From positions 1 to 33,279 of the forward strand of contig JAUHXR010000065.1 in NCBI GenBank assembly GCA_030426845.1: 33,279 bases of DNA. Direction: 5' to 3'. A program made the translations under genes and the position numbers. The stretch's first letter is position 1. Each line of letters opens with the position of its first letter. The notes under the pieces are model-generated. The model saw only the letters and a list, made by a program, of their open reading frames with translations, searched no databases and had not been told where the DNA came from. The DNA is from Polyangia bacterium. Its GTDB lineage: Bacteria > Myxococcota_A > Polyangia > Polyangiales > Sandaracinaceae. This document shows, piece after piece, positions 5,661 through 26,751 of the stretch.

Positions 5661-7334
5661 ATGAGGCAACACCTTCGGGTTGCGACGGTCATCGGTCTTT
5701 CGAGCGCGATGGTGGCGATGGCGCTGGGCGCGTGGAGCGCCACGACGGCCCACGCCCAGGACATGGTGTTCAACGTGGAGGAGACGGGGCAGCCGCCCGC
5801 GCCCCCCGCCGAGGGACCCCCGTCCGAGGCTCTCGCCAACGCCCTCCGGCTCTACCAGCAAGAGCGCTACATGGAGGCGTCGGTCCAGTTCCAGCGCGTG
5901 GTCGAGGGTGAGACCCAGGACGCGCCGGCGAACGTGCAGAAGGCGCAGTTCTTCCTCGGGAAGGCGCTCTACCACCTGCGCTTCTACCAGTCGGCGCTCG
6001 CGATCTTCGACGAGATCACCCAGCAGGGGCAGGGCCACAACTACTTCGGCCAGACCCTGCAGTGGCTGGCCCAGCTCGCCACCCAGCTCCCCGAGCCGGC
6101 GGGCATCATCGAGAAGGTCGGCCGCTACGGCACCGACCAGCTCGAGCAGTTCAACACCGCGGAGAGCAGCGGCCTCTACAACCAGCTCATCTACCTCATG
6201 GGTCGGTTCAAGTACTCGCAGGGCGAGTTCGAGGAGGCTATCCGGCTCTTCCAGCAGGTGGATCGCCAGAGCGACTACTACGTCTACGCGCGCTTCTTCG
6301 AGGGCATCGCCCACGTCCGGACCCGCCGCGCGCAGCCGGCCATCCAGGCGTTCCGCGCGATCGTGGACGCGATCGAGGAGGGCGTGACCGGCGTCGAGGA
6401 CACCAGCCGCATGCGCGATCTCGCGTGGCTCTCGCTCGCGCGCGTCTACTACACCGCGGCCAACCGCACGAACGCGGAGACCGGCGAGCGCACGATCGAC
6501 GGCACGCTCCTCGGCAACGCGGTCATCGCCTGGAACGAGATCGGCACCGGCTCGGAGTACTGGCTCGACGCCCTCTTCGAGGAGTCGTGGGCCTTCTTCC
6601 TCGCCGACGAGTACTCGCGCGCGATGGGCAACATCCACACGCTCTTCTCGCCCTACTTCGACGACGCCTACTACCCGGAGGCGCTCGTCCTCAAGGCGGT
6701 GATCTTCTTCTCGGCGTGTCAGGTCGACAACGCCGAGGCGATGATCTTCCAGTTCCATGAGCGGTACGACCCCGTCCAGGCCGAGCTGCAGTCCACCCTC
6801 GGCCAGTTCGAGGACAACCAGCAGTTCTTCGACTTCCTCCAGCGCGTCCGCGCCGGGGAGGCGAACCTCTCGCCCCGGATCCGCGGCGTCGTGAGCTCCG
6901 CGCTCTCCGACCGCACGCTCCTGCGTCACGTCGAGTACGTCCGGCTCCTCGAGGCCGAGGAGGCCCGCCTCAACCAGGCCCCGAGCGAGTTCAAGGACAG
7001 CAGCCTCGGCAGCCGGATCCTCCAGGACATCTTCGTGGCGAAGTCCTTCGCGATCGACCAGACGGGCGACCTCGCCCGCGGCCGGTACAACCGCCTGATC
7101 GACGATCTCAACGAGCTCATGAACCAGGTGGACACCGTCGAGCTCGAGATCGCGACCTTCCAGCGTGGCCAGCTCTCGCAGGAGATGCAGGAGCAGCAGA
7201 CGCAGGTGGCGCGCTCCGGCGGCCTCAACGTCGAGGTCGACGAGGAGCACCAGATGTGGCCCTTCGACGGCGAGTACTGGCGTGACGAGCTCGGGTTCTA
7301 CCGGCAGCAGGTCACGTCGCAGTGCGGTCGTTAG
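5661..7334 (+). CDS. Periplasmic TPR-like protein, possibly GltC-like
   Basis: 557 residues. The ATG at 5661 gives a signal peptide with cleavage after AHA (residue 32) and has GGGGA about 10 bases upstream; the frame stays open further upstream without coding character. The mature protein begins with a Pro-rich segment, then TPR-like helical hairpins: ALANALRLYQQERYMEASVQF, KAQFFLGKALYHLRFYQSAL and FEEAIRLFQQVDRQSDYYVY are typical. The second half (about residues 290-557) is helical with no recognised motif. The pattern (signal peptide, early TPRs, a YFGQTLQWL-type segment, then long helical tail) recalls GltC, a soluble periplasmic protein of the Myxococcus gliding complex. That match is from memory and uncertain, since in Myxococcus gltC lies in a different cluster. 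It heads the Glt-like cluster here. Confidence 0.8.
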   Translation: MRQHLRVATVIGLSSAMVAMALGAWSATTAHAQDMVFNVEETGQPPAPPAEGPPSEALANALRLYQQERYMEASVQFQRVVEGETQDAPANVQKAQFFLGKALYHLRFYQSALAIFDEITQQGQGHNYFGQTLQWLAQLATQLPEPAGIIEKVGRYGTDQLEQFNTAESSGLYNQLIYLMGRFKYSQGEFEEAIRLFQQVDRQSDYYVYARFFEGIAHVRTRRAQPAIQAFRAIVDAIEEGVTGVEDTSRMRDLAWLSLARVYYTAANRTNAETGERTIDGTLLGNAVIAWNEIGTGSEYWLDALFEESWAFFLADEYSRAMGNIHTLFSPYFDDAYYPEALVLKAVIFFSACQVDNAEAMIFQFHERYDPVQAELQSTLGQFEDNQQFFDFLQRVRAGEANLSPRIRGVVSSALSDRTLLRHVEYVRLLEAEEARLNQAPSEFKDSSLGSRILQDIFVAKSFAIDQTGDLARGRYNRLIDDLNELMNQVDTVELEIATFQRGQLSQEMQEQQTQVARSGGLNVEVDEEHQMWPFDGEYWRDELGFYRQQVTSQCGR

Positions 7335-7380
7335 CGAGCATTGGCTCGCGGGCGGTCGGGACGCTCGACCGCCCCTCTTT
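7334..7380 (+). terminator. double hairpin after the first TPR gene
   Basis: Two adjacent stem-loops directly after the stop codon. The first has a 6-bp stem and ATTG loop (7334-7349). The second is a perfect 9-bp stem, GGGCGGTCG with CGACCGCCC, loop of 7 (7350-7374), followed by CTCTTT. It resembles an intrinsic terminator. No good promoter is visible before gltD, so it may be partial and lower expression of the downstream genes. Confidence 0.6.
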
Positions 7381-7458
7381 GCTTGAGATTTGCTGAGTGA
7401 CTCAACGGCGCGCGTCCACGACCTCGGAGCCGCGCGCCAGCGAAAAAAGGTGAGCAGC

Positions 7459-10400
7459 ATGCGTCGCAAACTGGCCCTCCTCGTGGTGTGCTCGGCCCTC
7501 TTGGCCGCCGGCCTCCCGTTCGCGGTGGGAGCGCAGGACGACTCGGGATCGAGCGGATCCTCGGGCGCCTCCGGCGCACCCACGGGGATCCCTCCGGCGC
7601 CCCGGGGCGTCTGTATCCGCCCGGCGGCGAACTCGAACGTCGAGGACTGTCCGGCGAACGCCCCGCCGCCCAGCAAGCGCGGGGGCGCGCGGCCGGGCAC
7701 CGGGGACACGGACGTCGCCTCCCACTTCCGCGAGACCAAGCGCCAGGCGGAGGAGAGCCGCGGTGGGCCGACCGGTCCGAGCATCGAGCTCGACGCCGCG
7801 ACGCGCCGCAACCGCGACCGGATCGAGGTCCGCGCGCAGCGGCTGCTCCAGCGTGAGGTCCAGGTGCTCGAGCGCCTGGTCAGCCGCACGCGCGCCGGCG
7901 ACCCGCGCGGCGCCGACTACCTGCTGCGTCTCGCGGAGACGTACTTCGAGATGCAGCAGTTCTACAACACGCAGGCGCGCAACCTCGACCAGCCGATCTT
8001 CGAGGCGCGCGAGGCGAAGAACGGCGAGAAGGTCCGCCAGCTTCGTCAGCGTCAGCAGAGCGCGGAGCAGCAGCTCCAGCGCTTCCGGCAGGAGGCGATC
8101 CGCACCTACGCGCGGCTCGTCCGCGACTTCCCGAACTACCGCAACATGGACCAGGTCCTCTTCTCGCTGGCCTTCGGCCTCGAGGAGATGCGGCAGTTCC
8201 AGCGCGCGCGGCAGGTCTATCACCGGCTGATCAAGGGCTTCCCCCAGAGCCGCTTCATCCCGCACGCCTACCTCTCGTTCGCCGAGTACTACTTCGGCGA
8301 AGGGGACATGCGGGCCGCGCAGCAGTTCTACAACAAGGTCACGGAGATCCCACCCGAGCGAAACCCGGTCTACGGGTACGCGCTCTACAAACAGGCGTGG
8401 GCGCTCTACAACCTCGAAGACTTCCGCGGAGCGCTAACCCAGTTCGTGCGGGTGATCGAATTCGCCCAGCAGAACCCGGACGCGCGCGACTCCGCCAACC
8501 TCTCTCGACAGGCGAGGCGCGAGCTCGTCTTACCTTACTCTCGCGTCGGGACACCGAGACGCGCGCTGGAGTTCTTCCGTCGCTACGCGGCTGACGAAGA
8601 CCAAGCCCTCGAGATGCTCGAGAGCTTAGCTGAGCTCTATTACGACACAGGCAACTGGCCAGAGACGATCGAGGTCTACCACCGGTTAATGGCGGAACGG
8701 ACCCAGGGTCCACGGCTCTGTTACTGGCAGAGCCGCGTCACCAACGCGGTGATATCCAGCCGGCCGAAGGACGACCAGGTCACCGAGGTCCGGCGGCTGG
8801 TGGACGTCTACGAGAACTTCACCGAGGGCAGCCACCCTCGGGAGTCGGTCACCGAGTGCAAGCAGGCCACCGCGGCGATCCTCGTGTCGCTCGCGACCGC
8901 CTGGCACCGCGAGGCGATCGGCACCGACGACCAGCCGGGCACCAACGACCGCAACACCATGCGTGCGTCGGCGGCGCTCTACCGCGTCGTGCTTGACCGG
9001 TTCCCCGACATGGAGGAGATGCAGTTCCCCAACATCGACCGGCGGGACTGGCCGACGCGCTACCGCGTCTCCTACTTCTACGCGGAGCTCCTCTGGCGGA
9101 TGGAGGACTGGGCCCAATGCGGCCCGGCCTTCGACTCGGTGGTCGAGCAGAACCCGCAAGGCGAGTTCACACAGGACGCCGCCTACGCGGCGGTGCTCTG
9201 CTACAACAACCTCTACCAGCAGCAGTACTCCTCCCGAGAACGTACGACCCGCGAGAGCGGGGCCGAGGGAGGCGAGGACTGCTCACGGTTGAGAGGCCGG
9301 CGACGGCAGGCGTGTGAGCGCGCGGCCGAGGAGGCCGAGCAGGCCAACCAGTACGTCCCGCGCGAGCTGACCGCGACCGAGAGCGGCATGCTCAACGCGT
9401 TCCAGCGCTTCGTGTGCTTCGTCCAGGACAGCGACGAGCTGCCCACGATCAAGTACCGGCGCGCCCGCATCTTCTACGAGTCGAACCGCTACGAGGAGGC
9501 GGCGCTGCTCTTCCGCGACATCGCGCTGAACCACCGGGACAGCGAGCTGGCGGAGTACGCGGCCAACCTCTACCTCGACTCGCTGAACATCCTGGGCACG
9601 CAGTGGCAGCGCACGCAGTGCATCAACGACATCCGCGACAACATCGAGCCGCTGTCCGGCGCCTACTGCGCCAACAGCTCGGCCCGCGATGAGCACCCTG
9701 ACCTCTGTCAGGTCCTCGATCAGCTCCGCTGCGACACCCTCCGGCTCCAGGCCGAGGCGGCGCAGCGCGAGGAGCGGTTCCGCGACGCGGCGGGGATCTA
9801 CGTGAGCATCGCGCGCGAGCACCGCGAGTGCGGTCGCCTCGACGAGGTGCTCTACAACGCGGCCCTCAACTACGAGGCCGCCCGCCTGCTCGGCCGCGCC
9901 ATCCGGACGCGAACCGTCCTCATCAGCAACTTCCCGCAGAGCGAGCTGGCGCGGCGCGCGATCTTCCTGGTCGGCGCGAACTACCACGCCCTCGCGATCT
10001 ACAACCAGGCGGCCGAGTGGTACGAGCGCTTCGCGCGCGAGTACCCGGGCGAGGACGGCAGCAGCTGCACCGACGAGCAGCGGGAGGCCGGCACCTGCGC
10101 CATCGCCCACGAGGCGTTACAGAACGCCGTGTTCTTCCGGCTCGGTCTGGGCCAGGAGGACGAGGCGATCGCCAACGCAAACCTGTACGAGCGGAACTAC
10201 CGGCGGCGTATGCCGCAGGAGACCTCGCAGGTTCAGTTCTCCCTCGGCTCGATCTACGAGCGCCAGGAGGACTGGAACCGTCTCTTCAACCACTACCGCA
10301 ACTGGCTCCGCTCCTACGGGCGCAGCGCCCTGCCGCACGAGGTCATCATGGCCAACGTGCAGATGGGCGTCGCCAAGTGGCGGCTCGATCAGCGCGGCGA

Positions 10401-11148
10401 GGCGCGGCGCTACTTCGAGGCCGCGACGCGGGAGTGGCAGCGCAACGCCGGTGAGCGCATCGCGGGGCTCGACGACGTGAGCGACGCCGACCGGCAGCTC
10501 TACCTCGTGCGCGCGAAGGACGCGACGAGCGAGGCGCTGTTCTACCTGGCGGAGTACCTCTACGCCGACTTCCGGGCGATCCGCTTCCCGCGGTTCCACG
10601 GCGGTCGAAACCTCGAGCGGGTCCAGCGCTGGGCGGAGAACGACTTCGCCGGGTGGCTGACCCAGAAGCGTGAGGCTCTCGTGGCGGCCGAGGCGGCCTA
10701 CAACCTCATCGCGGAGCTCGAGATCCCGGAGTGGGAGATCGCTGGCGCCGCGCGGGTCGGGGAGATGTACCGGAGCTTCATGGATCAGATCCGTGAGGCG
10801 CCCATCCCCGAGGAGATCGAGAACGACGACGAGCTGTACGGGATCTACGTCGACGCCCTCGAGGCGGCGGCGCGACCCCTGCAGGCGCAGGCGATGGACA
10901 AGTTCGAGTTCTGCCTGACCACCGCGACGCGCGTCCGCTGGTTCAACGAGTACTCGACGCAGTGCGAGACCGAGCTGAACCAGCTCGATCGCGCCCGCTA
11001 CCCGATGGCGGCCGAGCTGCGCGGGGAGGCGAGCTACATCCAGCGCCAGATCGCGCGCCCGGGTGCGGTGACCCTCGACGCGAACCAGGAGGACGACGTC
11101 GGCGGGGCTGGCGAGAACGAAGTGCCGGTCGAGGGAGGTTCCGAATGA
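7459..11148 (+). CDS. gltD: GltD-like (AgmU-like) large periplasmic TPR protein
   Basis: 1229 residues, close to the roughly 1.2 kb-residue AgmU/GltD of Myxococcus as I recall it. A signal peptide (residues 1-25, ending AVGA-Q) indicates the periplasm. A low-complexity Ser/Gly/Pro segment follows, then helical hairpin repeats almost to the C-terminus. Several are of the tol-pal-associated TPR type, for example LVRDFPNYRNMDQVLFSLAF, KGFPQSRFIPHAYLSFAEYY and ISNFPQSELARRAIFLVGAN. The C-terminal 25 residues are acidic and Gly-rich. The ATG at 7459 is preceded by AAGGTGA; the frame is open from 7402 but lacks a signal sequence there. The stop overlaps the gltE start (ATGA), implying translational coupling. 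Codons at about 8340-8760 are unlike the rest, with TTA at 8530, 8626 and 8686 and CTA at 8434. In Myxococcus GltD is part of the periplasmic linkage of the gliding machine. Assignment is by size, order and architecture. Confidence 0.8.
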   Translation: MRRKLALLVVCSALLAAGLPFAVGAQDDSGSSGSSGASGAPTGIPPAPRGVCIRPAANSNVEDCPANAPPPSKRGGARPGTGDTDVASHFRETKRQAEESRGGPTGPSIELDAATRRNRDRIEVRAQRLLQREVQVLERLVSRTRAGDPRGADYLLRLAETYFEMQQFYNTQARNLDQPIFEAREAKNGEKVRQLRQRQQSAEQQLQRFRQEAIRTYARLVRDFPNYRNMDQVLFSLAFGLEEMRQFQRARQVYHRLIKGFPQSRFIPHAYLSFAEYYFGEGDMRAAQQFYNKVTEIPPERNPVYGYALYKQAWALYNLEDFRGALTQFVRVIEFAQQNPDARDSANLSRQARRELVLPYSRVGTPRRALEFFRRYAADEDQALEMLESLAELYYDTGNWPETIEVYHRLMAERTQGPRLCYWQSRVTNAVISSRPKDDQVTEVRRLVDVYENFTEGSHPRESVTECKQATAAILVSLATAWHREAIGTDDQPGTNDRNTMRASAALYRVVLDRFPDMEEMQFPNIDRRDWPTRYRVSYFYAELLWRMEDWAQCGPAFDSVVEQNPQGEFTQDAAYAAVLCYNNLYQQQYSSRERTTRESGAEGGEDCSRLRGRRRQACERAAEEAEQANQYVPRELTATESGMLNAFQRFVCFVQDSDELPTIKYRRARIFYESNRYEEAALLFRDIALNHRDSELAEYAANLYLDSLNILGTQWQRTQCINDIRDNIEPLSGAYCANSSARDEHPDLCQVLDQLRCDTLRLQAEAAQREERFRDAAGIYVSIAREHRECGRLDEVLYNAALNYEAARLLGRAIRTRTVLISNFPQSELARRAIFLVGANYHALAIYNQAAEWYERFAREYPGEDGSSCTDEQREAGTCAIAHEALQNAVFFRLGLGQEDEAIANANLYERNYRRRMPQETSQVQFSLGSIYERQEDWNRLFNHYRNWLRSYGRSALPHEVIMANVQMGVAKWRLDQRGEARRYFEAATREWQRNAGERIAGLDDVSDADRQLYLVRAKDATSEALFYLAEYLYADFRAIRFPRFHGGRNLERVQRWAENDFAGWLTQKREALVAAEAAYNLIAELEIPEWEIAGAARVGEMYRSFMDQIREAPIPEEIENDDELYGIYVDALEAAARPLQAQAMDKFEFCLTTATRVRWFNEYSTQCETELNQLDRARYPMAAELRGEASYIQRQIARPGAVTLDANQEDDVGGAGENEVPVEGGSE

Positions 11149-12533
11149 GCTCCGTCATCCGTACGCGCTGGATCCAGCGGCTGGGGCTGCTCGCCACGTT
11201 CGCGCTCGCCGCGGGCTGGGCGGGCTGCGGCGGCGGCTCGGGCGACGACAACGTGGCCACGGGGGAGGGCGGCAACGTCATCCGCACCGCCGGCGGCGCG
11301 GCCGTCTCCGAGGAGGCGCACAATCACTGGACCGAGGCGATCGCCATGTTCCGCACCAACGACGGCGCGGAGGGCACCTGGAACCCGCAGACCTGCCAGG
11401 CCACGCTCGGCAAGTTCGAGCAGGCCAACAGCGCGCAGGGCGGTAACTTCACCGAGGCCATCTACATGATGGGCGTGGTGTCGGGCCGCTGCGGCGACGA
11501 CGAGACCGCGCTGGGTCACTACCGGCGCGCGCTCGAGACGAACGAGAACTACTGTGGCGCCCGGGTCGGTGTCGGCATCGCCGACATGCGGGCCGGCCGC
11601 ACGGGCCCCGCGCGCCAGCACTTCGAGCGCGCGATCCGCGACGACAACCAGTGCACGTCCGCGTACGTGAACCTGGCGATCATCCAGCGGAGCAACGAGG
11701 GCGAGGTCCGCGAGGCGCTGAACAACCTGCGCCGCGCGCTCGCGATCGAGTCGGACTACCTCCCGGCCTTCAACCAGATGGCGCTGCTCTACCTCGGGCA
11801 GGCGGAGGACAACCAGCAGATGCTCGACCTCGCGGAGGTCGTCTGCCGGCAGGCCCAGATCATCAACGGGAACTACGCGCCGATCTACAACACCTGGGGG
11901 CTCATCAACGTCCGCCAGGGCAACATCATCGCGGCCCTCGCGAAGTTCGAGCGAGCGTTCAACCTCGACGCGGACTTCTTCGAGGCCTACATGAACTTCG
12001 GCCAGCTCACGATCAGCTTCCGTGGCTACCAGGACGCGGCGCGGGCCTTCACGCGGGCGCGCGAGCTGCAGCCGCAGAGCTACGACGCGGTCATCGGCCT
12101 CGGGGCGGCCCAGCGCGGCCTCAACCAGCTCGACGAGGCCGAGGCCACCTACCGGGCGGCGATGGAGATCGACGGCCAGCGGCCGGAGGCCTACTTCAAC
12201 CTCGGGCTGCTGTACCAGGACTTCAAGGGCGGCAACGTCCCCGACCTGCGCCAGGCCCAGCAGTTCTACGAGCAGTTCACGCAGCGGGCGGGGAACACCC
12301 CGCGCTACTCGGAGACGGTCGAGAACGTGACCCGTCAGTGCCGTCGGCGGCAGCAGCGCAGCGGCCGCCGTCGCGAGGGTCAGAGCGAGTGGGTCGGCGA
12401 CTGCCGCCCCGGTCGCGTCCAGCAGATCGTCGAGTCGATCCGCGTTCAGGAGGAGCTGCAGGAGATGCAGCGCCAGATGCAGCAGCAGCAGGGGGCGACC
12501 CCGCCGGCCGAGGGTGGCGGCGAGGGCGGCTGA
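11145..12533 (+). CDS. gltE: GltE-like (AglT-like) TPR lipoprotein
   Basis: 462 residues. A type II signal peptide ends GWAGC, lipid-modified Cys28. About eight consecutive canonical TPRs occupy residues 55-410; clear units include ALGHYRRALETNENY, ARQHFERAIRDDNQC, ALAKFERAFNLDADF, AARAFTRARELQPQS and AEATYRAAMEIDGQR. The tail is Arg- then Gln-rich (EMQRQMQQQQG) and ends in Gly/Glu. TPRs are protein-protein interaction modules. In Myxococcus, GltE (AglT) is a TPR lipoprotein of the adventurous gliding complex, encoded next to gltD. The ATG overlaps the gltD stop and has GAGGGAGG about 8 bases upstream. A hairpin follows the stop. The family call rests on lipobox, TPRs and gene order. Confidence 0.82.
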   Translation: MSSVIRTRWIQRLGLLATFALAAGWAGCGGGSGDDNVATGEGGNVIRTAGGAAVSEEAHNHWTEAIAMFRTNDGAEGTWNPQTCQATLGKFEQANSAQGGNFTEAIYMMGVVSGRCGDDETALGHYRRALETNENYCGARVGVGIADMRAGRTGPARQHFERAIRDDNQCTSAYVNLAIIQRSNEGEVREALNNLRRALAIESDYLPAFNQMALLYLGQAEDNQQMLDLAEVVCRQAQIINGNYAPIYNTWGLINVRQGNIIAALAKFERAFNLDADFFEAYMNFGQLTISFRGYQDAARAFTRARELQPQSYDAVIGLGAAQRGLNQLDEAEATYRAAMEIDGQRPEAYFNLGLLYQDFKGGNVPDLRQAQQFYEQFTQRAGNTPRYSETVENVTRQCRRRQQRSGRRREGQSEWVGDCRPGRVQQIVESIRVQEELQEMQRQMQQQQGATPPAEGGGEGG

Positions 12534-12564
12534 GCCCTCCACTCCACCGGAACGGCCCCCGGGA

Positions 12565-12590
12565 GGCCGCTCGCCAGCCGGCGGGCGGCC
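12565..12590 (+). terminator. hairpin ending the gltD-gltE unit
   Basis: An 11-bp stem (12565-12575 with 12580-12590, one G-T wobble) with loop AGCC, followed by TTCGT. It lies 32 bases after the gltE stop. The stem is strong but the U-tract is weak. Confidence 0.5.
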
Positions 12591-13109: not shown

Positions 13110-13177
13110 AGAGCGCAGTCTTCTTTTGGAGATCGCAATCGTCTTTGCGGGCGTCATCGTCGCGAGAGCGGCGAGAT

Positions 13178-13182
13178 GGAGG
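13178..13182 (+). promoter_or_regulatory. gltG: ribosome binding site deciding the gltG start
   Basis: GGAGG at 13178-13182 lies five bases before the GTG at 13188. The in-frame ATG at 13176 overlaps this site and has only a weak purine stretch before it. GTG is therefore the better start. Confidence 0.65.
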
Positions 13183-13187
13183 CTAGG

Positions 13188-15164
13188 GTGAGCGACGGCA
13201 AGGTTCCGATCAGTTTTAAGGTCTACAAGGGTGACGAGCTCACTCGCACCGAGACCTTGACCCAGGACATCATCAAGGTCGGCAAGCTGCCTTCGAGCCA
13301 CCTGCGGATCGAGGACGACAACGTCTCTCGAATGCACGCGGTGATCGAGGTGACGTCCCCCGAGGAGATCTTCATCATCGATCTCGGGTCGGCGGCGGGC
13401 ACGATCGTCAACGGCAAGAAGGTCAACAAGACCCAGCTGAAGACGGGGGACGAGATCGTCCTCGGCGACACCCGCGTGGTGGTCGAGATCGGGGCCGCCG
13501 AGGCGGCGGTCTCCGACGACGAGCCGGCCACCGTGGTGAGCGCGGCGCCCGAGGCGGCGATGCCTTCGGAGCCGGCGCCCGCGTCGGCCCCGCCGAACCC
13601 CTTCGCGGCTCCCGCGAAGCCGGCCGGCGCGCCGCTGCACAACCCCTTCGCGGCCCCGGCGGCTCCGGCGGCGAGCGCAGCCCCCGCGGCGGGCGCGAGC
13701 GGCTACGGCATCCTCGCGAGCGGCCCGCCGGTGAACCCGGCCGAGGTCGAGAGCCACCAGTCCGCGGCCGAGGTCGTCGTGATGTGGGGCGACATGAGCG
13801 TGCTCCACGTCGAGCACCTCTCGCCGCCGCGTCCCTTCTACATCGGTGAGGGCAAGGACTCCGACTACCTCGTCGAGAGCTCGGTGCTCGGCGCCAGCCG
13901 GATGCCCGTCGTGACCCAGGCGGGAGGCGGCGTCGCCGTGGTCGTGCCGGACGGCGCGGACGGCTTCGTCCAGGTCGGCGACCAGCAGATGTCGTTCGCG
14001 GATCTCAAGGCCGGCGGCAAGCTGCAGCCCTGCTCCGAGATGGCGGGCGCGATGCAGTACCCGCTCCCCGAGGGCGCGACCGCGACCGTCAACTACAAGG
14101 GCTTCACCTTCCGCACCAAGGCGACCCCGATGGGGAAGCGGGTCGGCGGCGGCATGGAGATCGAGTGGAAGCGCTACATCTGGACGGCGGTCTCGCTCGG
14201 CGTCCACGCGGCGTTCCTGCTGATGTTCTACTTCCTGCCTCCGCGGCCGGCGTCGCTGTCCCTCGACCTCCTCTCGGCGGACTCCCGCCTGGTCGAGTAC
14301 CTGATGGAGCCCCCGGAGACGGCCGAGGAGGAGACTCCGGAGTGGCTCCAGGAAGACCAGATGGACGACAACGAGGGCGGCACCGGCAAGCGCCATCGCG
14401 ACGAGGAAGGCGCGATGGGCGAGGAGTCCTCGGAGAAGACGAACAACCGCTACGGCATCGAGGGTCCGGCCGACAACACCGACCCGCAGATGGCCCGCGA
14501 GCAGGCTCGTGAGCAGGCGGCGAACGTCGGCGCGATCGGCGTCCTCCGTGCGATGACCGGCTCGTGGAACTCGCCCACCTCGCCTTACGGCGCGGACGTG
14601 GCCCTGGGCAACGACCCGATGAGCGCGATCGGCGCGCTCATGGGTGACCAGATCGGCAGCAACTTCGGCTTCGGCGGCCTGGGCCTTCGCGGCACCGGTC
14701 GCGGTGGCGGCGGCACCGGCGAGGGCACGATCGGCCTCGGCAACCTCGGCACGATCGGCCACGGCGGCGGCGGCGGCACCGGCTCGGGCTACGGCCGCGG
14801 GGCGGGCGGCCTGCGCGGTCGCTCGGCTCGGGTCCCGCGGATCCGCACCGGCAACGCGGACGTCCGCGGCTCGCTCTCCCGCGAGGTCATCCGGCGCGTC
14901 ATCCGGCGCCACATCAATGAGGTCCGGTTCTGCTACGAGCAGGAGCTCAACCAGCGCCCCGACCTCGAGGGTCGCGTCTTGGTCAGCTTCATCATCTCGC
15001 CGACCGGCGCGGTCCAGTCCGCCACGGTGGGCAACTCGACCATCAGCAACGCGCGGGTCGAGGGCTGCATCGTCCAGGCGGTTCGCCGCTGGACCTTCCC
15101 GGCACCCGACGGTGGCGGCGTGGTCGGCGTCAACTACCCGTTCGTCCTGTCCAGCCAGGGCTGA
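13188..15164 (+). CDS. gltG: GltG-like inner-membrane protein: FHA domain, TM helix, TonB-like AgmX/PglI C-terminus
   Basis: 658 residues. The N-terminal FHA domain (about 25-101) has the phosphothreonine-binding residues: Gly32, S47-R48-x-H50 (NVSRMHAVIEV), then DLGSAAGT and N75-G76. An Ala/Pro linker follows. A second segment from residue 217 (FYIGEGKDSDYLVES) looks like the start of another FHA fold without the SRxH motif. A single TM helix spans about 330-351 (TAVSLGVHAAFLLMFYFLP). The periplasmic part is acidic, then Gly-rich (480-550), ending in a TonB-like domain at about 562-655 (VLVSFIISPTGAVQ) with cysteines 582 and 627 that could pair. In Myxococcus GltG has this same order and is thought to span the cell envelope and contact outer-membrane partners. 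It is preceded by the small secreted gene and followed by a strong terminator. An alternative start is ATG 13176. Confidence 0.85.
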   Translation: MSDGKVPISFKVYKGDELTRTETLTQDIIKVGKLPSSHLRIEDDNVSRMHAVIEVTSPEEIFIIDLGSAAGTIVNGKKVNKTQLKTGDEIVLGDTRVVVEIGAAEAAVSDDEPATVVSAAPEAAMPSEPAPASAPPNPFAAPAKPAGAPLHNPFAAPAAPAASAAPAAGASGYGILASGPPVNPAEVESHQSAAEVVVMWGDMSVLHVEHLSPPRPFYIGEGKDSDYLVESSVLGASRMPVVTQAGGGVAVVVPDGADGFVQVGDQQMSFADLKAGGKLQPCSEMAGAMQYPLPEGATATVNYKGFTFRTKATPMGKRVGGGMEIEWKRYIWTAVSLGVHAAFLLMFYFLPPRPASLSLDLLSADSRLVEYLMEPPETAEEETPEWLQEDQMDDNEGGTGKRHRDEEGAMGEESSEKTNNRYGIEGPADNTDPQMAREQAREQAANVGAIGVLRAMTGSWNSPTSPYGADVALGNDPMSAIGALMGDQIGSNFGFGGLGLRGTGRGGGGTGEGTIGLGNLGTIGHGGGGGTGSGYGRGAGGLRGRSARVPRIRTGNADVRGSLSREVIRRVIRRHINEVRFCYEQELNQRPDLEGRVLVSFIISPTGAVQSATVGNSTISNARVEGCIVQAVRRWTFPAPDGGGVVGVNYPFVLSSQG

Positions 15165-15206
15165 CACGCATCCCAAGCGCGGCCGGGGCGACCCAGCCGC
15201 CGCGCC

Positions 15207-15518: not shown

Positions 15519-16388
15519 ATGAACCGCCTTCAGGCCCTGTCCGTCGGCCTCTTCACCTTCGTATTCATGATCGGGGGGAACTGCTCGCGCACGCGCGTCG
15601 AGTCGATCAACCGGATGAACGAGGGCGTGGTCCTCGCGGCCCAGAAGCAGTACGTGCAGGCCGCCGAGAAGCTCGAGAGCGCGACCGCGGTCGATCCGAC
15701 GAACGACCAGGCGTACTGGAACCTCGCGATCGTGCACATGGAGATGCACAAGTTCGAGCGCGCGCGCGAGGACCTGCAGCGCGCGATCGACGTCAACGGC
15801 GACGTCGCGGGCTACCACGAGAAGCTCGGCACCGTGCTCATGGAGCTCGAGAACTGGGAGGGCGCGCAGCGCGCGTTCGCCCGCGCGATCGAGCTCGACG
15901 AGGGCCTGTTCAAGGCGCACTACAAGCTCGCTCAGGTCCACGAGCGCCTCGACAACCCGCAGGAAGCGTTGCGCGAGTACACGCTCGCGGTCCAGACCGG
16001 CCCGCGCTTCATCGAGGGCTACCGGAGCCTCGGCCGGCTGTACGCGGACCTCGACTACCTCGACGAGGCGGTCCAGGTCCTCCAGAGCGGCCTCCAGGTC
16101 GTGATCGAGGGCACCGAGGACGAGGCGCATCTGCACCATCTGCTCGGCACGGTGTTCCAGCAGCAGGGCGACTACGACGCGGCGGTGCGCGAGTTCCGCG
16201 CCGCGCTCGGGCTGATGCCGAGCCTCCGCGAGGCGCTCTTCGCGCTCGGCTGGACCTACTCGCTGCAGGACAACCGCGAGGAGGCGCGGCGCTACCTCAA
16301 GCGCTACGTCGACACGGCGGGCGGGGACGCGCCGTCGCACTACATCAAGGCGGCGCGCGATCGGCTCAACGACCTCGGGGGTCCGTAG
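15519..16388 (+). CDS. TPR-repeat (probable) lipoprotein of the Glt-like cluster
   Basis: 289 residues. A hydrophobic N-terminus (residues 6-20) is followed by GGNC, Cys22. Asn at position -1 is unusual for a lipobox, so lipidation is probable rather than certain. Seven canonical TPRs fill residues 30-275: for example AYWNLAIVHMEMHKFERA, AQRAFARAIELDEGL, AHYKLAQVHERLDNPQEAL, ALREYTLAVQTGPRF and AVREFRAALGLMPSL. The ATG at 15519 has AAGAGGAG about 9 bases upstream. It lies between gltG and the giant TPR gene, so it may be an additional scaffold of the same machine. I cannot assign it to a named Glt component; it may belong to this lineage's version of the cluster. Confidence 0.82.
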   Translation: MNRLQALSVGLFTFVFMIGGNCSRTRVESINRMNEGVVLAAQKQYVQAAEKLESATAVDPTNDQAYWNLAIVHMEMHKFERAREDLQRAIDVNGDVAGYHEKLGTVLMELENWEGAQRAFARAIELDEGLFKAHYKLAQVHERLDNPQEALREYTLAVQTGPRFIEGYRSLGRLYADLDYLDEAVQVLQSGLQVVIEGTEDEAHLHHLLGTVFQQQGDYDAAVREFRAALGLMPSLREALFALGWTYSLQDNREEARRYLKRYVDTAGGDAPSHYIKAARDRLNDLGGP

Positions 16389-19500: not shown

Positions 19501-22500
19501 GAGCTGCTCCACCAGATCGCGGAGCTCTACGAGGTCGCGCTCGAGGACTACGGAAACGCGTTCTACTCGTACGCGCGGGCTCTGGCGGCCGACCCGGCGG
19601 ACCTCAACACCCAGGAGCAGCTCGAGCGCATCGCGCGCGCGACGGGCGCCTTCGAGCAGCTGGCGCAGGTCTACGAGGAGCGCGTCCAGGGGCTCGAGGA
19701 TCCGGCGCTCGCCGCGCAGCTCCACGTCAAGGCGGCGACCATCCGCGAGGACCAGCTCGCCGACTACGACACCTCGATCGCGCACTACCAGCGCGTGCTC
19801 GCGATCGATCCCGACCACATCGAGTCGGCGACCGCCCTCGAGCGCCTCTTCCAGATGGCGGAGCGCTACGAGGAGCTCGCGCAGATCCTCCTCAAGAAGG
19901 CGCAGATCCTCGACATCCCCGACGATCAGAAGTCGCACCTCTACCGCGCGGCCGCGATCTACGAGGACCTCCTCGAGCGGCCGAACGACGCGATCGGCGT
20001 CTACCAGAAGGTGCTCGACGTCGACTCGGAGGATCTGCCCGCGCTCGACAAGCTGATCGAGCTGCACCTCCGCCTCGAGAAGTGGCCGGAGCTGCTCGGG
20101 TTCTACGAGCGCAAGGCCGACATCGTCTTCGACCCCGACGAGAAGAAGGCGCTCTACCTCGAGGTCGGCGCGGTCTACGAGCGCGAGGTCGGCGATGTCG
20201 ACAAGGCGATCGACACCTACCAGCGCATCCTCGAGATCGATCCCGACGACCTCACCGCCATCCAGCGCCTCGACGCCCTCTACCAGGCGAGCGGAAACTG
20301 GGAGGAGCTCCGCAACATCCTCGAGCGCGAGGCGGAGCTCGCCGGCGACCCGAACGAGGTCATCTCCTACCGTTACCGCATCGCCGACCTCTGGGATCAC
20401 CGGCTCGGTGACCCGGCCCGCGCGGTCGAGGGCTACCGCGACATCCTCGCGGTGATCCCCGATCACCAGCCGACCCTCGAGGCGCTCGAGCGGATGATCG
20501 CCGAGGGCAAGGAGCCCAACGAGGCGGCGCTCGTCCTCGACCCGATCTACCGCCAGTACGGCGAGTTCGAGCGGCTCGTCGCGGTCCTCGAGGTGCAGGT
20601 CGCGCACGAGGAGGATCCGGCGCGCAAGGTGGACCTGCTCCACCAGATCGCCGAGCTCCAGGAGGTTCAGCTCGAGCGCTCACAGGCCGCGTTCGAGGCC
20701 TTCGCGCGCGCGCTCCCGCACGACTTCGCGGCGGGCGGGGCCAACGAGCACACCCTCGGGAGCCTCGAGCGGCTCGCGGACGAGCTCGGCGCGTGGCCGC
20801 AGCTCACCGGGCTCTACGACACGGAGATCCAGAAGCTCCGCGAGAGCGCGCCGGACCAGCTGATCGACATGGCGCTGCGGGTCGCGCAGCACTACTTCAT
20901 CCAGGTCGGCGACGTCGACTCGTCGATCGCGCGCTACCGCCTCGTGCTCGAGGCGGACGAGGCGCACCCGCAGGCCATCGAGGCCCTCGATCAGCTGTAC
21001 GAGCAGACGGAGCGCTGGCCCGACCTCGCGGAGATCCTCGCCAAGGAGGCGCAGCTCGCGGCGACCCCCGAGGACGTGCTGAGCTTCCAGTTCCGCCTCG
21101 GCCAGGTCTACCAGCACCACCTCGGTCGGGTGGACGACGCGATCGGCCAGTACCGCGAGATCCTCGCGGCCGAGCCCGATCACAGCCAGTCGCTCGGCGC
21201 GCTCGAGATGCTGTTCGCCGAGGGCGTGCAGCCGCTGATGATCGGCGAGATCCTCGAGCCGCTCTACCGGATGAGCGAGTCCTGGGACCGGCTGGTCGGC
21301 GTGCAGACCGTCCAGCTCCAGTACCAGACCGATCCCGACGAGCGCGTGCAGCGGATGCACGCGATCGCGGAGATCGCCGAGGACCGCGCGGGCGATCACC
21401 AGACCGCCTTCGAGTGGATGCAGCGCGCGCTCCTCGAGCAGCCGCGGCACGATCACACGGTGGGAGAGGTCGAGCGCCTCGCGGCGATGCTCGACGGCTG
21501 GGGCCAGCTCGCCAACACCTACGCGGACGTCCTCGCCGGCGCCGAGGACGCCGAGACGATCGTCCCGACCGGCAAGGCCCAGGCGCGGGTCTACGAGCAC
21601 GAGCTCGGCGACGTGCAGCGCGCGGTCGAGTCGTACCTCTTCGTCCTCAAGGCGCAGCCCGCGGACGCGGAGGCGCTCGAGAACCTCGATCGCATCTACT
21701 CCGAGCACGGCGCGCACGAGGCGCTCGCCGAGACCCTCAAGCGGCGCGTCGCGATCGCCGAGGACGACATGGAGCGCGTGGAGCTGAGCTTCCGGCTCGG
21801 TCAGGTGCTCGAGAACGAGCTCGCGCGGATCGACGAGGCGGTCGAGGTCTACAACGGCCTGCTCGCCAACCTCGACTCCGAGCACGAGGGCTCGATCAAG
21901 TCGCTCCAGAACATCTACACCGAGAAACAGGACTGGACGTCTCTGTTCGCCATCTTCCAGCGGGAGATGGACGTGGTGATGGGCGACACCGCGCGCTCCG
22001 ACGTCACCGCCAAGATGGCCTACGTCTCCTCGTCCTACCTCGGCGAGGCGGACAAGGCGATCGAGCTGTGGAAGGAGGTCCTCGACCTCCGCGGCGAGGA
22101 TCCGGAGGCGCTCAACGCCCTCGGGAACATCTACGCCAGCCTCGAGCGCTGGGGCGAGCTCGTCGAGATCCTCGATCGTGAGGTCACGGTCGCCGAGAGC
22201 GACGAGACGCGCTGCGCGATCTTCGCGGACATGGCGCGCATCTTCTACACGCGCCTCCACAAGGAGCAGGACGCCATCGACTCGTGGGATCGCGTGCTCG
22301 ACATCGATCCGACGAACCCGACGGCGCTGTTCGGCATCGCCGAGATCCACCGCAACGCGGAGCGCTGGCACGAGCTCGCCGACACCCTCCAGCGGGTGAT
22401 CGAAGTGGGCGCGGCGACGCTCGACGACCGCACGCTCGAGACGGTCTACATGCAGCTCGGCACGCTCTACGAGTTCACGCTCGAGCAGCCGATGGACGCG

Positions 22501-25500
22501 GTCGACGCCTACCAGCGCGGGCTCGAGGTCAACCCGTACAACTACGCCGCGATGGACGCGCTCGAGCGCGTGCACCGCCAGAGCGGCGAGTGGGTCGACG
22601 CGATCGAGGTGATGGAGAAGCGGGCGGCTGCGATGCAGGAGCCCGAGCACAAGATCGCGGTCTACCTCGCGATCGCGGAGGCCTGGCAGGTCCACGCCGA
22701 GCAGCCCGACCGCGGCACGAGCGCCTACGAGCGGATCGTCGAGCTCGACCCTCTGCACCGCTTCGCGTTCGATCAGCTCGAGCAGCTCCACTCGGCGGCC
22801 GGCCGCTGGGAGGAGCTGGTCGAGATGTACCTCGCGCGGATGGACACCGTCGCGGAGGCGGAGGACTCGGACCCCGAGGAGGTCATCGATCTCCTCCTGC
22901 GCGTCGCTGGCGTCTACGAGGAGCACCTCGAGGACCTCGAGCAGGCGCAGGACGCGCTGATCATCGCGTGGGAGCAGGACTTCACCAACAAGAAGACCGG
23001 CAACGAGCTCGAGCGCGTGACCGCCGCCTACGCGCGGCTGCTGGGCAAGACCGACCCCTGGAACAAGCCCCTCAACCTCGCCAACGAGACCCTCTCGGGC
23101 CTCCAGGGGCACGAGGACGAGGAGAGCCGGGACATCAAGATCGCGCTCTGCCTGCGGTGCGCGAACTGGTACGCGATCCAGCTCAACCACCCCGAGTACG
23201 CGACGCCGTACTACGATCAGATCCTCGCCCTCGACCCGACCAACTACGGGGCGATGAACAGCCAGGCGAACCTGCACCGGCACCTCGGCCAGTGGCAGGA
23301 GCTCGCGCAGATGCTCGGGCGCATGAGCGAGATCGTCCAGGCGCCTCACGAGCGCGCGTCGGTCTTCGTCGACATGGGCGAGCTCTGCGAGACCCACCTC
23401 GGCATGCCCGAGCAGGCGCCCGGCTACTTCCAGCGCGCGCTCGACGCGGACAACCTCCACGTCGGCGCGATCACCAGCCTCGAGCGGGTCTACCAGGGCC
23501 AGCAGAACTGGAACGAGCTGCTCAAGGTCCTCCGGCTCAAGGTCGAGGGCATGAAGGCGTCCGACGATCACGGCCCGAGCGACGTCGCCGACGCGCGCCT
23601 CCAGGTCGGCGAGCTCCTCGAGCTGCACTTCAACCGGCAGGAGGAGGCGATCGAGGAGTTCCGCGCGATCGTCGACGCGGACCCGACCGAGATCCGCGCC
23701 CTCAAGGGCCTCGAGCGCCTCTACGCGGTGCGCGAGAGCTGGCAGCCCCTCTACGAGGTGCTCGAGCGCCAGTACCACCTCGTCTCCACCGAGAAGGAGA
23801 AGGTCTCCATCCTGATCCGCCTCGCGGCGATGCTCGAGGAGGAGTTCCTCAAGCCGGAGCTCGCGGCGGAGAAGCTCGAGGCGGTCCTCGAGATCGACCC
23901 GAACAACGAGAACGCGCTGCGCGGGCTCGAGCGCCTCTACCGCAACCTGCAGCAGTGGGAGCGGCTCATCGGGGCCTACGAGCGCCACGTCGCGGCCTCG
24001 CCGGATCGCGGCGTGAAGTCGGCCTGCTACGCGGCGATCGGCGAGGTCTACGCGGGCGAGCTCGGCGACGTGGACCGCGCGATCGACAGCTACCTTGCGC
24101 TCCTCGACATCGACGAGGACAACGTCGCGGCGCTCGACGCCCTCACGCGGCTCTACGAGAAGCGCGAGGACTACAGCCAGGCGCTCGAGTTCATGAACAA
24201 GCTCGCGCGTCTGCAGACCGACCCGGCGCAGGCGGTGGACATGCGCTTCCGCATGGGCCGCATCCTCGACGCTCAGCTCGCCGATCGGGACGGCGCGGTG
24301 GACTGCTACCGGCAGGCGCTCGACGCCGACCCGGGGCACCTCCCGTCGCTCGAGGCGATGCGGAAGATCCACCTCGACATGGGCGACTGGCTCGCGGCGG
24401 CGAAGACGCTGGAGCAGGAGACCCAGTACACCGACAACCCGCGGCGCACGAGCGAGCTCCTCGTCGAGCTCGGCCGGATCTACGACGAGCGCCTCGACGA
24501 GCACGACCGCGCGGTCCAGTGCTACGACGCGGCGCAGAAGCAGAACCCGGACAACGAGGACGCCGCGCTCCCGCTCGCCGAGGAGTACGTCAAGACCGAG
24601 CGCTGGGCGGAGGCCTTCCCCCTGCTCGACATGCTCGTGAAGCGCTCGGGCAAGCGCGAGCAGCACGAGCAGCACCACCTCGCGTTCATGCTCGGGGACG
24701 TCGCGCTGCGGCTACGCCAGAGCGGCGCGCTGGCAGACGACGCGCAGGCGGCGATCAAGGCGCTGACCAAGGCCTACCAGCTCGATCAGCAGCACCTCCC
24801 GACGCTCATGAAGCTCGCCGACGCCCACTACCAGGAGCAGGAGTGGGACAAGGCGTTCAAGTACTACCAGATGCTCCTCGTCCACCACCGCGACTCGCTG
24901 GGGCGTGACGAGACGACCGAGGTCTTCTTCAAGCTCGGCGTGGTGAAGCGCGAGCAGGGTGATCGCCGCAAGGCGCTCAACATGTTCGACAAGGCCCTCG
25001 AGGAGGACCCGCACCACCGACCGACGTTGGAGGCGATGGTCGGGGTCTACGAGAAGGCCAGCGACTGGGAGCAGGTCATCCACTACAAGAAGCAGGTCCT
25101 CGAGGTCGCCGACATCGAGGAGCGCTTCGCGATGCTGCAGGACATCGGCGACCTGTGGGACGAGAAGGCGAAGAACCCGCAGAAGGCGATCGAGGCCTAT
25201 GCGGAGGCTTCCGAGCTCGAGCCGGAGAACCACCGGCTGCTCCACAAGCTCCTGATGCTCTACCAGAAGACGCGTCAGTGGGACGAGGCCATCATGATCA
25301 TCCGTCGGGTCGCCGACCTCGACGCGCGTCCCCAGGCCAAGTCGAAGTACCTCTACACCATCGCCGTCATCTACCGCGACGAGCTCAAGGACGCGGACAA
25401 GGCGATGCAGATGTTCGACGAGTCGCTGGACCTCGACCACACGCAGCTGAAGGCCTTCGAGGCGATCAACAAGATCCTGAACCAGAAGAAGGACTGGAAG

Positions 25501-26751
25501 CAGCTCGAGCGGGCCTTCCGCAAGATGCTCCACCGCGTCGCGGGCAAGGAGGGCCAGGGCGACCTGGAGTACAACCTCTGGCACAACCTCGGCGTGATCT
25601 ACCGCGACCGGCTCAAGCAGTACGAGAACGCGGTCGCCGCCTTCACGACCGTCACGCAGCGCATCCGCCCGGACAGCGCGACCGATCACCAGATCCTCGC
25701 CGAGCTCCACACGATGATCGGCGGTGACAACGTCCAGAGCGCGATCGAGCAGCACCAGTGGCTCATCCGCCAGGACCCGTACCGCGTCGACAGCTACCAG
25801 CAGCTCTACAAGCTCTACTTCGACGCCCGCCAGTACGACAAGGCGTGGTGCCTCGCCGCGACGCTCACCTTCCTCAAGAAGGCGAACGCGGAGCAGCAGC
25901 AGTTCTTCGCCGACAACAAGCCGAGCGGTCCCATCCGGCCGACGGCGCGCCTCAACGACGAGCGCTGGCTCAAGGACGTGGCGCACCCGGAGCAGGACCT
26001 GCTCGCGAGCAAGATCTTCGAGCAGCTCTGGCCCGCGGTCCTGTCGCTCCGCATCCAGAGCGACAAGCAGGCGCAGCTCTCGGCCAAGCACGAGGTCAAC
26101 CTCGCCGAGAGCACGGTGACTTTCGCCCGGACCTTCGGGTTCTGCGCGAACGTCCTGGGTCTGCCGCCGCCGCGGCTCTTCCTGCGCACGGACGTGCCGG
26201 GCGGGCTCACGCACATGCCGGTCTGGCCGCTCGCGTCCCTCTCGGGCGCGACGCTGCTGAGCGGCTACAGCCCGGGTGACCTGATGTTCGTGGCCGCCCG
26301 CCACCTCGCGGACTACCGGCCCGAGCACTACATCCGCACGATGCTCAAGTCGAACACCGAGCTGAAGACGGTGCTCATGGCGGGGCTGCGCATCTCGGGC
26401 GTCGTGCCGCAGGCCGACGCGGCGACCGAGCAGGCGGCTCAGCAGATCGCGAGCAAGATCCAGCCGGCGCAGCGGGACGCGCTCCGCAGCCTCGCCAAGC
26501 GCTTCGTGGACGCGGGCGCGCGGACGGACATCAAGCGCTGGCTGCAGGCGGTCGAGCTCACCTCGTGCCGCGCGGGCCTGCTGGCGTGCAACGACCTCGA
26601 CACGGCGGCGCGGATGGTCACCCAGCTCGGCGCGGCCGGGCCGGTGGACCTCGCGCCGAAGGAGAAGGTCAAGGAGCTGGTCCTCTTCAGCGTGAGCGAG
26701 GAGTACTTCAAGCTGCGAGAGTTCCTGGGCATCAGGATCCCGCTCGCGTAG
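16561..26751 (+). CDS. gltI: GltI-like (AgmK-like) giant cytoplasmic TPR protein
   Basis: 3396 residues from a GTG with AGGAGG 7 bases upstream. No signal peptide or membrane helix, so cytoplasmic. Residues about 15-3080 are a continuous TPR solenoid. By eye there are around 40 supra-repeats of roughly 70-80 residues, each pairing a unit like AIDTYQRILEIDPDDLTA with one like LERWTDLADNIGRQL. Acidic residues and LE pairs dominate. The last 280 residues differ: at 3221-3256 the text VWPLASLSGATLL, GYSPGDLMFVAARHLADYR and PEHY resembles the region around the HExxH helix of M48-type peptidases, but without the metal-binding motif. In Myxococcus AgmK/GltI (about 3.8 kb residues as I recall) is the cytoplasmic TPR partner of the motor and GltJ/MglA. 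It follows the TPR lipoprotein by 172 bases. Long antisense ORFs on this gene are codon-bias shadows. Confidence 0.85.
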   Translation: MSETENEAPAELSDDDRAKLAELDEAIEKYTGQKRWTDVIKAMVEKGDIHVDPAQKVELYAEAGRMYLDKSSNQAEAIKCFEKVLEHDSHNLEAIEQLKEMYEKRRDWESLVGIRQRAAERMDEADRLFEYIEIANLATQRLRKPDICIALWEKVLEEDPESHEALESLSQLYERAREWEPLARVLDKRVSQIDDENELKQSLQKLGMIYADKIGDDEGAVSAFRRLLMLDPDDRRAQEQLKRRYVALRAWDDLEDFYAATEKWDELIRTFEREAEGKDTTDEERAQLLFRAARLWLEKNDKPDRAARAYEKVLSKDENNLEAALALSPIYEEAGDAKKLVRVYEIRLHHAEEPAERVHLLRESGLLYEEKLRKPKSAFRCFVEAFKADPTQEIIQDDVARLAEATNGWDKAIQAYADAIEGSTDIDVQVELRLQLGRLLTQVEKVDEAIEQYRAVYDARSDSMEAIGALEQLYRQTERYRELLEVYERRMELEGDPEVRRQLAYGRAGLFQNELGDADRAIDAYQAILDEWGDDESDAYAALDGLYFTEERWAEMAQTLERRIDLGPESTEELAALKFRLANVLSEHLDEKDRSLGLYREVLTLLPEHDGARERLESFLEVEIDEDGNVVGAELAAQAATILEPIYEMNGQWEALVKALEVLADASSHDPERRLEILTKVGEVCGTQIGDQARAFDAYARALRVMPESVETLQRLELLAVEQNRFDDLYALVEELAAATTDPDLSRALWLKSAMIHDNQRNDVDKAVHAYNQILESDPGDHEVLDWLDALYRRTERWRDLLGVVRRKAELASDPERQEELLAQNAMVYEEMLEEPESAIGVYNDILELDPTSQRALVALDRLYERLERWTDLADNIGRQLSIADDPEAQTSLMLRLAVLRETRMDAIEAAIEIYREVLDRDPTVPAALEALERLIQREDQQLAIAGVLEPIYRDSSQYEKLIQVHEIQAAHAESPDMQVELLHQIAELYEVALEDYGNAFYSYARALAADPADLNTQEQLERIARATGAFEQLAQVYEERVQGLEDPALAAQLHVKAATIREDQLADYDTSIAHYQRVLAIDPDHIESATALERLFQMAERYEELAQILLKKAQILDIPDDQKSHLYRAAAIYEDLLERPNDAIGVYQKVLDVDSEDLPALDKLIELHLRLEKWPELLGFYERKADIVFDPDEKKALYLEVGAVYEREVGDVDKAIDTYQRILEIDPDDLTAIQRLDALYQASGNWEELRNILEREAELAGDPNEVISYRYRIADLWDHRLGDPARAVEGYRDILAVIPDHQPTLEALERMIAEGKEPNEAALVLDPIYRQYGEFERLVAVLEVQVAHEEDPARKVDLLHQIAELQEVQLERSQAAFEAFARALPHDFAAGGANEHTLGSLERLADELGAWPQLTGLYDTEIQKLRESAPDQLIDMALRVAQHYFIQVGDVDSSIARYRLVLEADEAHPQAIEALDQLYEQTERWPDLAEILAKEAQLAATPEDVLSFQFRLGQVYQHHLGRVDDAIGQYREILAAEPDHSQSLGALEMLFAEGVQPLMIGEILEPLYRMSESWDRLVGVQTVQLQYQTDPDERVQRMHAIAEIAEDRAGDHQTAFEWMQRALLEQPRHDHTVGEVERLAAMLDGWGQLANTYADVLAGAEDAETIVPTGKAQARVYEHELGDVQRAVESYLFVLKAQPADAEALENLDRIYSEHGAHEALAETLKRRVAIAEDDMERVELSFRLGQVLENELARIDEAVEVYNGLLANLDSEHEGSIKSLQNIYTEKQDWTSLFAIFQREMDVVMGDTARSDVTAKMAYVSSSYLGEADKAIELWKEVLDLRGEDPEALNALGNIYASLERWGELVEILDREVTVAESDETRCAIFADMARIFYTRLHKEQDAIDSWDRVLDIDPTNPTALFGIAEIHRNAERWHELADTLQRVIEVGAATLDDRTLETVYMQLGTLYEFTLEQPMDAVDAYQRGLEVNPYNYAAMDALERVHRQSGEWVDAIEVMEKRAAAMQEPEHKIAVYLAIAEAWQVHAEQPDRGTSAYERIVELDPLHRFAFDQLEQLHSAAGRWEELVEMYLARMDTVAEAEDSDPEEVIDLLLRVAGVYEEHLEDLEQAQDALIIAWEQDFTNKKTGNELERVTAAYARLLGKTDPWNKPLNLANETLSGLQGHEDEESRDIKIALCLRCANWYAIQLNHPEYATPYYDQILALDPTNYGAMNSQANLHRHLGQWQELAQMLGRMSEIVQAPHERASVFVDMGELCETHLGMPEQAPGYFQRALDADNLHVGAITSLERVYQGQQNWNELLKVLRLKVEGMKASDDHGPSDVADARLQVGELLELHFNRQEEAIEEFRAIVDADPTEIRALKGLERLYAVRESWQPLYEVLERQYHLVSTEKEKVSILIRLAAMLEEEFLKPELAAEKLEAVLEIDPNNENALRGLERLYRNLQQWERLIGAYERHVAASPDRGVKSACYAAIGEVYAGELGDVDRAIDSYLALLDIDEDNVAALDALTRLYEKREDYSQALEFMNKLARLQTDPAQAVDMRFRMGRILDAQLADRDGAVDCYRQALDADPGHLPSLEAMRKIHLDMGDWLAAAKTLEQETQYTDNPRRTSELLVELGRIYDERLDEHDRAVQCYDAAQKQNPDNEDAALPLAEEYVKTERWAEAFPLLDMLVKRSGKREQHEQHHLAFMLGDVALRLRQSGALADDAQAAIKALTKAYQLDQQHLPTLMKLADAHYQEQEWDKAFKYYQMLLVHHRDSLGRDETTEVFFKLGVVKREQGDRRKALNMFDKALEEDPHHRPTLEAMVGVYEKASDWEQVIHYKKQVLEVADIEERFAMLQDIGDLWDEKAKNPQKAIEAYAEASELEPENHRLLHKLLMLYQKTRQWDEAIMIIRRVADLDARPQAKSKYLYTIAVIYRDELKDADKAMQMFDESLDLDHTQLKAFEAINKILNQKKDWKQLERAFRKMLHRVAGKEGQGDLEYNLWHNLGVIYRDRLKQYENAVAAFTTVTQRIRPDSATDHQILAELHTMIGGDNVQSAIEQHQWLIRQDPYRVDSYQQLYKLYFDARQYDKAWCLAATLTFLKKANAEQQQFFADNKPSGPIRPTARLNDERWLKDVAHPEQDLLASKIFEQLWPAVLSLRIQSDKQAQLSAKHEVNLAESTVTFARTFGFCANVLGLPPPRLFLRTDVPGGLTHMPVWPLASLSGATLLSGYSPGDLMFVAARHLADYRPEHYIRTMLKSNTELKTVLMAGLRISGVVPQADAATEQAAQQIASKIQPAQRDALRSLAKRFVDAGARTDIKRWLQAVELTSCRAGLLACNDLDTAARMVTQLGAAGPVDLAPKEKVKELVLFSVSEEYFKLREFLGIRIPLA

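Follow-up and report, generated by a model that had tools for sequence, protein, structure and literature searches.

Seven consecutive genes in a contig of a Sandaracinaceae-type myxobacterial MAG probably encode the envelope part of an Agl-Glt gliding machine (probability about 0.75). The window analyzed here, 33,279 nucleotides long, makes up contig C115 in full; the genome (9.4 Mb in 538 contigs) is 95% complete, and among named genomes its closest relatives are Sandaracinaceae MAGs. The assignment is based on the identities of the genes at the family level, on their order, linkage, and conservation, and on the presence of other parts of the machine elsewhere in the same genome. An earlier note on this DNA had described a Glt cluster that lacked both its motor and its outer-membrane partners. 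This apparent puzzle is removed, because most of the absences of Glt parts arise where contigs end or where genes are dispersed. The most likely reading is a normal gliding apparatus whose genes are scattered, as opposed to a relic without a motor.

The glt gene block and its conservation

Gene calling on the window yielded seven plus-strand genes in a row (Table 1) in the order gltC-gltD-gltE-gltF(cglF)-gltG-(TPR lipoprotein)-gltI. Their coordinates and NCBIfam matches agree with the seven consecutive Glt-type genes of the earlier note. That note had given the order as D-E-(F)-G-I; the first gene was overlooked as GltC and cglF was left unnamed. As the first gene encodes GltC, the order is C-D-E-F-G-(TPR)-I.

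Table 1. Features of the window and of the adjoining contig C14, given in window positions
Feature	Position	Strand	Basis
Two gltA/gltB-type outer-membrane barrel genes on C14, following ftsY	about -765 to -2120 and -2117 to -3052		TIGR04565 OMP_myx_plus
ftsY, part (3' part on C14)	2..685	-	TIGR00064
Secreted protein with carboxypeptidase-regulatory-like domain	701..2788	-	PF13620, 1e-18
HEAT-repeat protein and HAMP-like membrane protein	2563..4303	+	PF13646, 3.4e-17; weak HAMP, 0.0019
gltC homolog, periplasmic TPR protein	5661..7334	+	NF033756 gliding_GltC, 2.9e-84, 284 bits
gltD (agmU) homolog, large periplasmic TPR protein	7459..11148	+	TPR repeats, signal peptide, place
gltE (aglT) homolog, TPR lipoprotein	11145..12533	+	NF033758 gliding_GltE, 1.9e-28
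gltF (cglF) homolog, small secreted protein, 85 aa	12852..13109	+	NF033764 gliding_CglF, 1.0e-17
gltG (pglI) homolog	13176..15164	+	NF033760 gliding_GltG, 7.7e-132, full length
Unnamed TPR lipoprotein	15519..16388	+	TPR; place directly before gltI
gltI (agmK) homolog, giant cytoplasmic TPR protein, 3396 aa	16561..26751	+	TPR throughout
Membrane gene after gltI, unrelated	26792-27964	-	no family match

The comparison with the Glt families that the earlier note had proposed supports these identities: in an NCBIfam search, GltC, GltE, CglF, and GltG of the window all have Glt models as their best matches. The NCBIfam equivalog cut-offs are reached by no window protein, and GltC falls under the value of 450 set for its model. 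GltC matches at 1e-30 or better occur in 217 of 285 Myxococcota genomes, and a single genome (G011) exceeds the cut-off, which therefore describes the neighborhood of Myxococcus and not the family.

The gltC product carries a signal peptide from the ATG at 5661 and is more than 60% identical to the products of genes at the same place in relatives. No NCBIfam GltD model matched the second gene, which has the size, TPR content, and place beside gltE of gltD as well as a signal peptide at its start codon. It is homologous (25% identity, 4e-78) to the gene that directly follows gltC in G011, the genome with the only GltC found above the cut-off. The gltE gene starts at an ATG with an SD sequence, and the gliding_GltE model is the best of all models for it. 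The product of the fourth gene has gliding_CglF as its sole match; CglF is presumably GltF, an equation with which the size and place of MXAN_4868, as given in PMC3169522, agree.

GltG consists of an FHA domain (1.3e-16), one transmembrane segment (the single hydrophobic segment at 335-353), and a periplasmic TonB-C/AgmX-PglI tail (NF033768, 5.5e-33). A PDB search with GltG retrieved FHA proteins only and thus adds nothing to its identity. GltI has a distinct C-terminal domain, and neither a signal peptide nor a transmembrane or hydrophobic segment was found in it; no NCBIfam GltI model matched. Its C-terminus is 69-82% identical within the same family and about 40-60% identical in most of the order, and it is matched in 142 of 285 Myxococcota genomes, a count that includes paralogs.

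According to the NCBIfam scores and to a gene order that is repeated in about 40 loci, the existence of the block is far beyond chance. As a whole, or as far as the respective contig extends, the block recurs in 18 loci of named MAGs and in G011. It is also present in eight of nine other genomes whose sequence upstream of gltI was read, the ninth (G163) having the TPR lipoprotein and gltI alone, and in most of another 20 loci from several families. Since some named and numbered genomes represent the same organism, about 40 independent loci are a fair count. The synteny across Myxococcota that the earlier note had asked about is thus present, and the recurrence of the same block in so many related loci of the phylum indicates an ancestral block under selection. 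The low-GC loci G011, L066, and L083 were either left out or read from ORFs and HMM matches in place of GC-bias gene calling.

The flank before gltC, consisting of the HEAT protein, the HAMP-like protein, and a minus-strand gene, is conserved throughout the order, and the HEAT/HAMP-like pair is kept in relatives as the flank of the cluster. The secreted-protein gene at 701..2788 lies upstream of ftsY-gltA/B and is conserved along with them (kept in G187, G158, and G124). Genes downstream of gltI vary by family. The most complete Glt cluster among the loci of this analysis is found on contig C25 of G011 (L168/L169), where a VWA lipoprotein (CglB/CglD-like), an outer-membrane barrel, gltC-D-E-F-G, the TPR lipoprotein, gltI, and gltJ (GltJ N-terminus, 2.9e-37) form one row. 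In five genomes (G156, G137, G039, G215, and G217), GltI-like proteins had no convincing Glt neighbors in the stretch read, which for G156 covers 1.7 kb only; these proteins are probably paralogs. The scan of genome contigs yielded one Myxococcaceae locus (L085), with a lone gltF-gltG pair.

Wherever the stretch from gltG to gltI was read, the gene of the TPR lipoprotein lies within it; the gene immediately precedes gltI in all complete Glt clusters of this analysis, and it adjoins gltI without gltC-G alongside in G163, G254, and G232. The lipobox of the protein is degenerate in the window copy (GGNC); copies from relatives, for example G116 and G060, have a canonical one. In M. xanthus, this place is taken by gltH and the disputed agmV (MXAN_4864/4865), the latter having been called probable non-genes (PMC3169522); AgmV was later detected in outer-membrane vesicles (PMC4158809). 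The lipoprotein holds the place of agmV. Tentatively, and at somewhat less than even odds, it may be a nearly universal, unrecognized part of the gliding machine as well as the dedicated partner of GltI. This conserved, GltI-paired protein, which has so far been left out of the machine, is the one fresh lead.

Parts of the machine outside the block

Within the window, no gltJ, aglRQS, or outer-membrane barrel gene was found. The window is overlapped by contig C14 at its left end and by contig C64 at its right end, each by exactly 127 bp. Two barrel genes are located on C14 at 0.8-3.1 kb past the left edge, the first of them starting within 1 kb of the window edge. Their products reach 77 and 49 bits against TIGR04565, a myxobacterial outer-membrane barrel family with a cut-off of 60. 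Divergent barrel genes also lie about 7-9 kb upstream of gltC in G187 (on one 10.33-Mb contig), G158, and G111. As the barrel genes are encoded on the adjoining contig and likewise in relatives, partners of the GltA/GltB type are linked to the block and the window merely ends before them, which contradicts the earlier statement that no outer-membrane partners are nearby.

On the right side, C64 carries a gene resembling greA as well as one for an MglA-like GTPase, and this linkage is also found in G187 and G158. The GTPase (L226, C64 2973-3962), located 2.8-3.8 kb past the right edge, has a C-terminal extension and differs from the true MglA, which is encoded on C252. There, MglB and MglA are encoded by adjacent genes, with 220 and 355 bits to the respective M. 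xanthus proteins.

The gene following gltI is indeed an unrelated membrane gene on the minus strand, and gltJ is missing behind gltI, as had been noted before. Nothing of GltJ architecture follows gltI in 20 genomes checked (one of which, G249, probably has a paralog); the exception is G011, where a GltJ N-terminus comes after gltI. The layout of GltJ, with zinc ribbon, GYF domain, and TonB-C-like tail, is present in two unlinked candidates on contigs C75 and C320. The zinc-ribbon (7zok) and GYF (7z3c) structures of AgmX (GltJ) are the only PDB matches of the C75 protein and the two best of the C320 protein, and genes like that on C75 are widespread in the order. A search of the genome with the VWA lipoprotein of G011 as probe gave a weak CglB-like VWA match only (C339, 1.8e-7), and no convincing CglB was found.

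An unlinked, TolQR-like motor had been predicted, and contig C70 encodes two divergent TolQ-TolR-TolR cassettes that are unlinked to the block of the window and are also found in G187 and G111. In a tree of TolQ, ExbB, and MotA proteins (n=46), the TolQs of C70 group with the two Glt-linked TolQs of G011 (C78 and C212; support 96/97), and this clade stands apart from the remaining proteins. Therefore, C70 is the best candidate for the motor, an assignment made from the TolQ tree, which holds no M. xanthus AglRQS reference, together with cassette order. The transmembrane aspartate is retained in the sequences of the C70 cassettes. A PDB search with the C70 TolQ matched TolQ/ExbB only and thus adds nothing to the identity. 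Altogether, the genome-wide search recovered mglA, gltA/B-type genes, and a TolQ-TolR-TolR motor, and for gltJ it yielded the two GltJ-like candidates.

The system resembles the Agl-Glt machine of M. xanthus in having homologs of GltC, D, E, F, G, and I with the same domains, an unlinked TolQ-TolR-TolR motor, MglA/MglB, and outer-membrane barrels of the GltA/B type. In M. xanthus, gltC lies in the separate cluster G2, and clusters G1, G2, and M1 are apart from each other (PMC3169522), so a motor that is unlinked from the glt genes is normal. The genes are thus dispersed as in M. xanthus but split otherwise. Here, gltC is part of the gltD-I operon and gltA/B are divergent and close by, whereas gltJ, which does not follow gltI, and the motor are encoded elsewhere. 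Further differences are the TPR lipoprotein in the place of gltH, the position of two motor cassettes side by side, and the extra MglA-like GTPase beyond the right edge. The case shows how this machine is distributed over separate loci in a different branch of the Myxococcota. In Anaeromyxobacter, homologs of G1 and G2 are grouped on the chromosome (PMC3169522); the likeness to the window, in which G1 and G2 gene homologs also occur together, is by description only.

Proposed mechanism and alternative explanations

By analogy with M. xanthus, from which the working mechanism is inferred, the block would serve as the cytoplasm-to-periplasm transducer of the Agl-Glt machine. The TolQ-TolR-TolR proton channel encoded by the C70 cassettes would use the proton motive force, and its AglR-type subunit would hold GltG in the inner membrane, with the FHA domain in the cytoplasm and the TonB-C tail in the periplasm. 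A contact between AglR and GltG has been reported for M. xanthus (PMC3169522). GltD, GltE, GltF, and GltC would then pass the force across the periplasm to the GltA/GltB barrels; in M. xanthus, GltC assembles with GltA and GltB into a subcomplex at the outer membrane (PMC4488436). GltI, the giant TPR protein, may act as a cytoplasmic scaffold. Polarity and assembly would be set by MglA/MglB together with a GltJ-like protein of the zinc-ribbon/GYF type, both of them unlinked; in M. xanthus, AglR and GltJ are acted on by MglA (PMC12288465). Sandaracinus amylolyticus, a relative in the same family, is reported to glide (PMC5010890).

The main rival explanation is that the cluster is a Glt paralog with another role in surface transport, such as an Nfs-like wrapping of spore-coat polymer, and that gliding depends on other genes or is absent. 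It has this rank because the genome contains Glt paralogs and because M. xanthus uses the paralog Nfs for its spore coats. Agl-Glt and Nfs machines are modular, and Nfs shares homologs of GltA-H, encoded in one region (PMC3858216). S. amylolyticus also forms spores (PMC5010890), and the genome has further Glt-like loci, namely a core cluster on C323, a GltD-like gene on C360, and a GltG-like gene on C462, among which function may therefore be divided. Nfs, however, is devoid of GltI, J, and K (PMC3858216), whereas the cluster of the window has GltI, and an identity with Nfs was set aside for this reason. The best matches of GltC, GltE, CglF, and GltG to Glt models and the strong conservation of the block through the order also argue against this explanation, which is considered unlikely.

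The earlier note had favored an ancestral or repurposed trans-envelope complex, motor-less and only loosely tied to gliding. The lack of motor and gltJ genes in the window would fit such a complex, and related core complexes are known from non-gliding bacteria (PMC3169522). These core complexes, which occur in gamma- and some deltaproteobacteria and are encoded by the group B genes gltC, D, E, and G plus aglRQS (PMC3169522), share GltC, D, E, and G with the window, but they have a linked motor and neither gltF nor gltI, whereas the window has gltF and gltI and its motor is unlinked. Group A genes (gltF, gltI, gltA, gltB, etc.) are found only in Myxococcales and Bdellovibrionales (PMC3169522) and thus are missing from the core complexes of other bacteria; the gltF, gltI, and gltA/gltB-type genes described here belong to this group. 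The parts in question are carried by contigs C70 (Agl-type motor cassettes), C252 (MglA/MglB), C14 (GltA/B-type barrels), and C75/C320 (GltJ-like proteins) of the same genome, and a relative is described as gliding. The motor-less or relic reading was dropped on these grounds and appears very unlikely.

That a general TolQR or the divergent C323 protein resembling TolQ is the true motor in place of the C70 cassettes is highly improbable. The TolQ-like gene of C323 is located between gltF- and gltG-like genes, but its product has no TolQ family match and sits on a very long branch, and the gene has no TolR neighbors; in the C70 cassettes, the transmembrane aspartate is kept.

Other Glt-like and motor loci of the genome

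The C323 locus (L036, 373-11553) is a second, divergent Glt-like core cluster. It encodes a 271-aa protein, GltC-, GltD-, GltE-, and GltF-like proteins, the very divergent TolQ-like protein, and a GltG-like protein, the gene for the TolQ-like protein being placed between the gltF- and gltG-like genes. A related locus of G011 (C78) has TolQ-TolR-TolR, whereas the C323 locus has no TolR. C323 is closer to the core complex than the block of the window.

Two further paralogs are orphans, each remote from other glt genes. The GltG-like protein of C462 (L032, 10162-11748) has no FHA domain and is 57% identical to GltG of the window, and the GltD-like protein of C360 (L034, 2415-5960) is 44% identical to its GltD. 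A 127-bp overlap joins contigs C447 and C453 (L033 3-3053, minus strand, joined to L031 3-2000, plus strand), which together apparently encode a single long lipoprotein; a GltG-like TonB-C tail lies in the middle of this protein, followed by TPR-like repeats.

Contig C70 (L062, 2992-11544) also contains a fifth TolR-like gene at 2992-3486 on the minus strand, and a conserved 357-aa membrane protein is encoded after one of its TolQ-TolR-TolR cassettes. Another envelope motor cassette is present on C114 (L059, 6363-11855), where a TolQ gene is accompanied by two genes for TolR and by genes for a TonB-like protein and a secreted protein of 1021 aa; its TolQ falls outside the Glt-linked clade.
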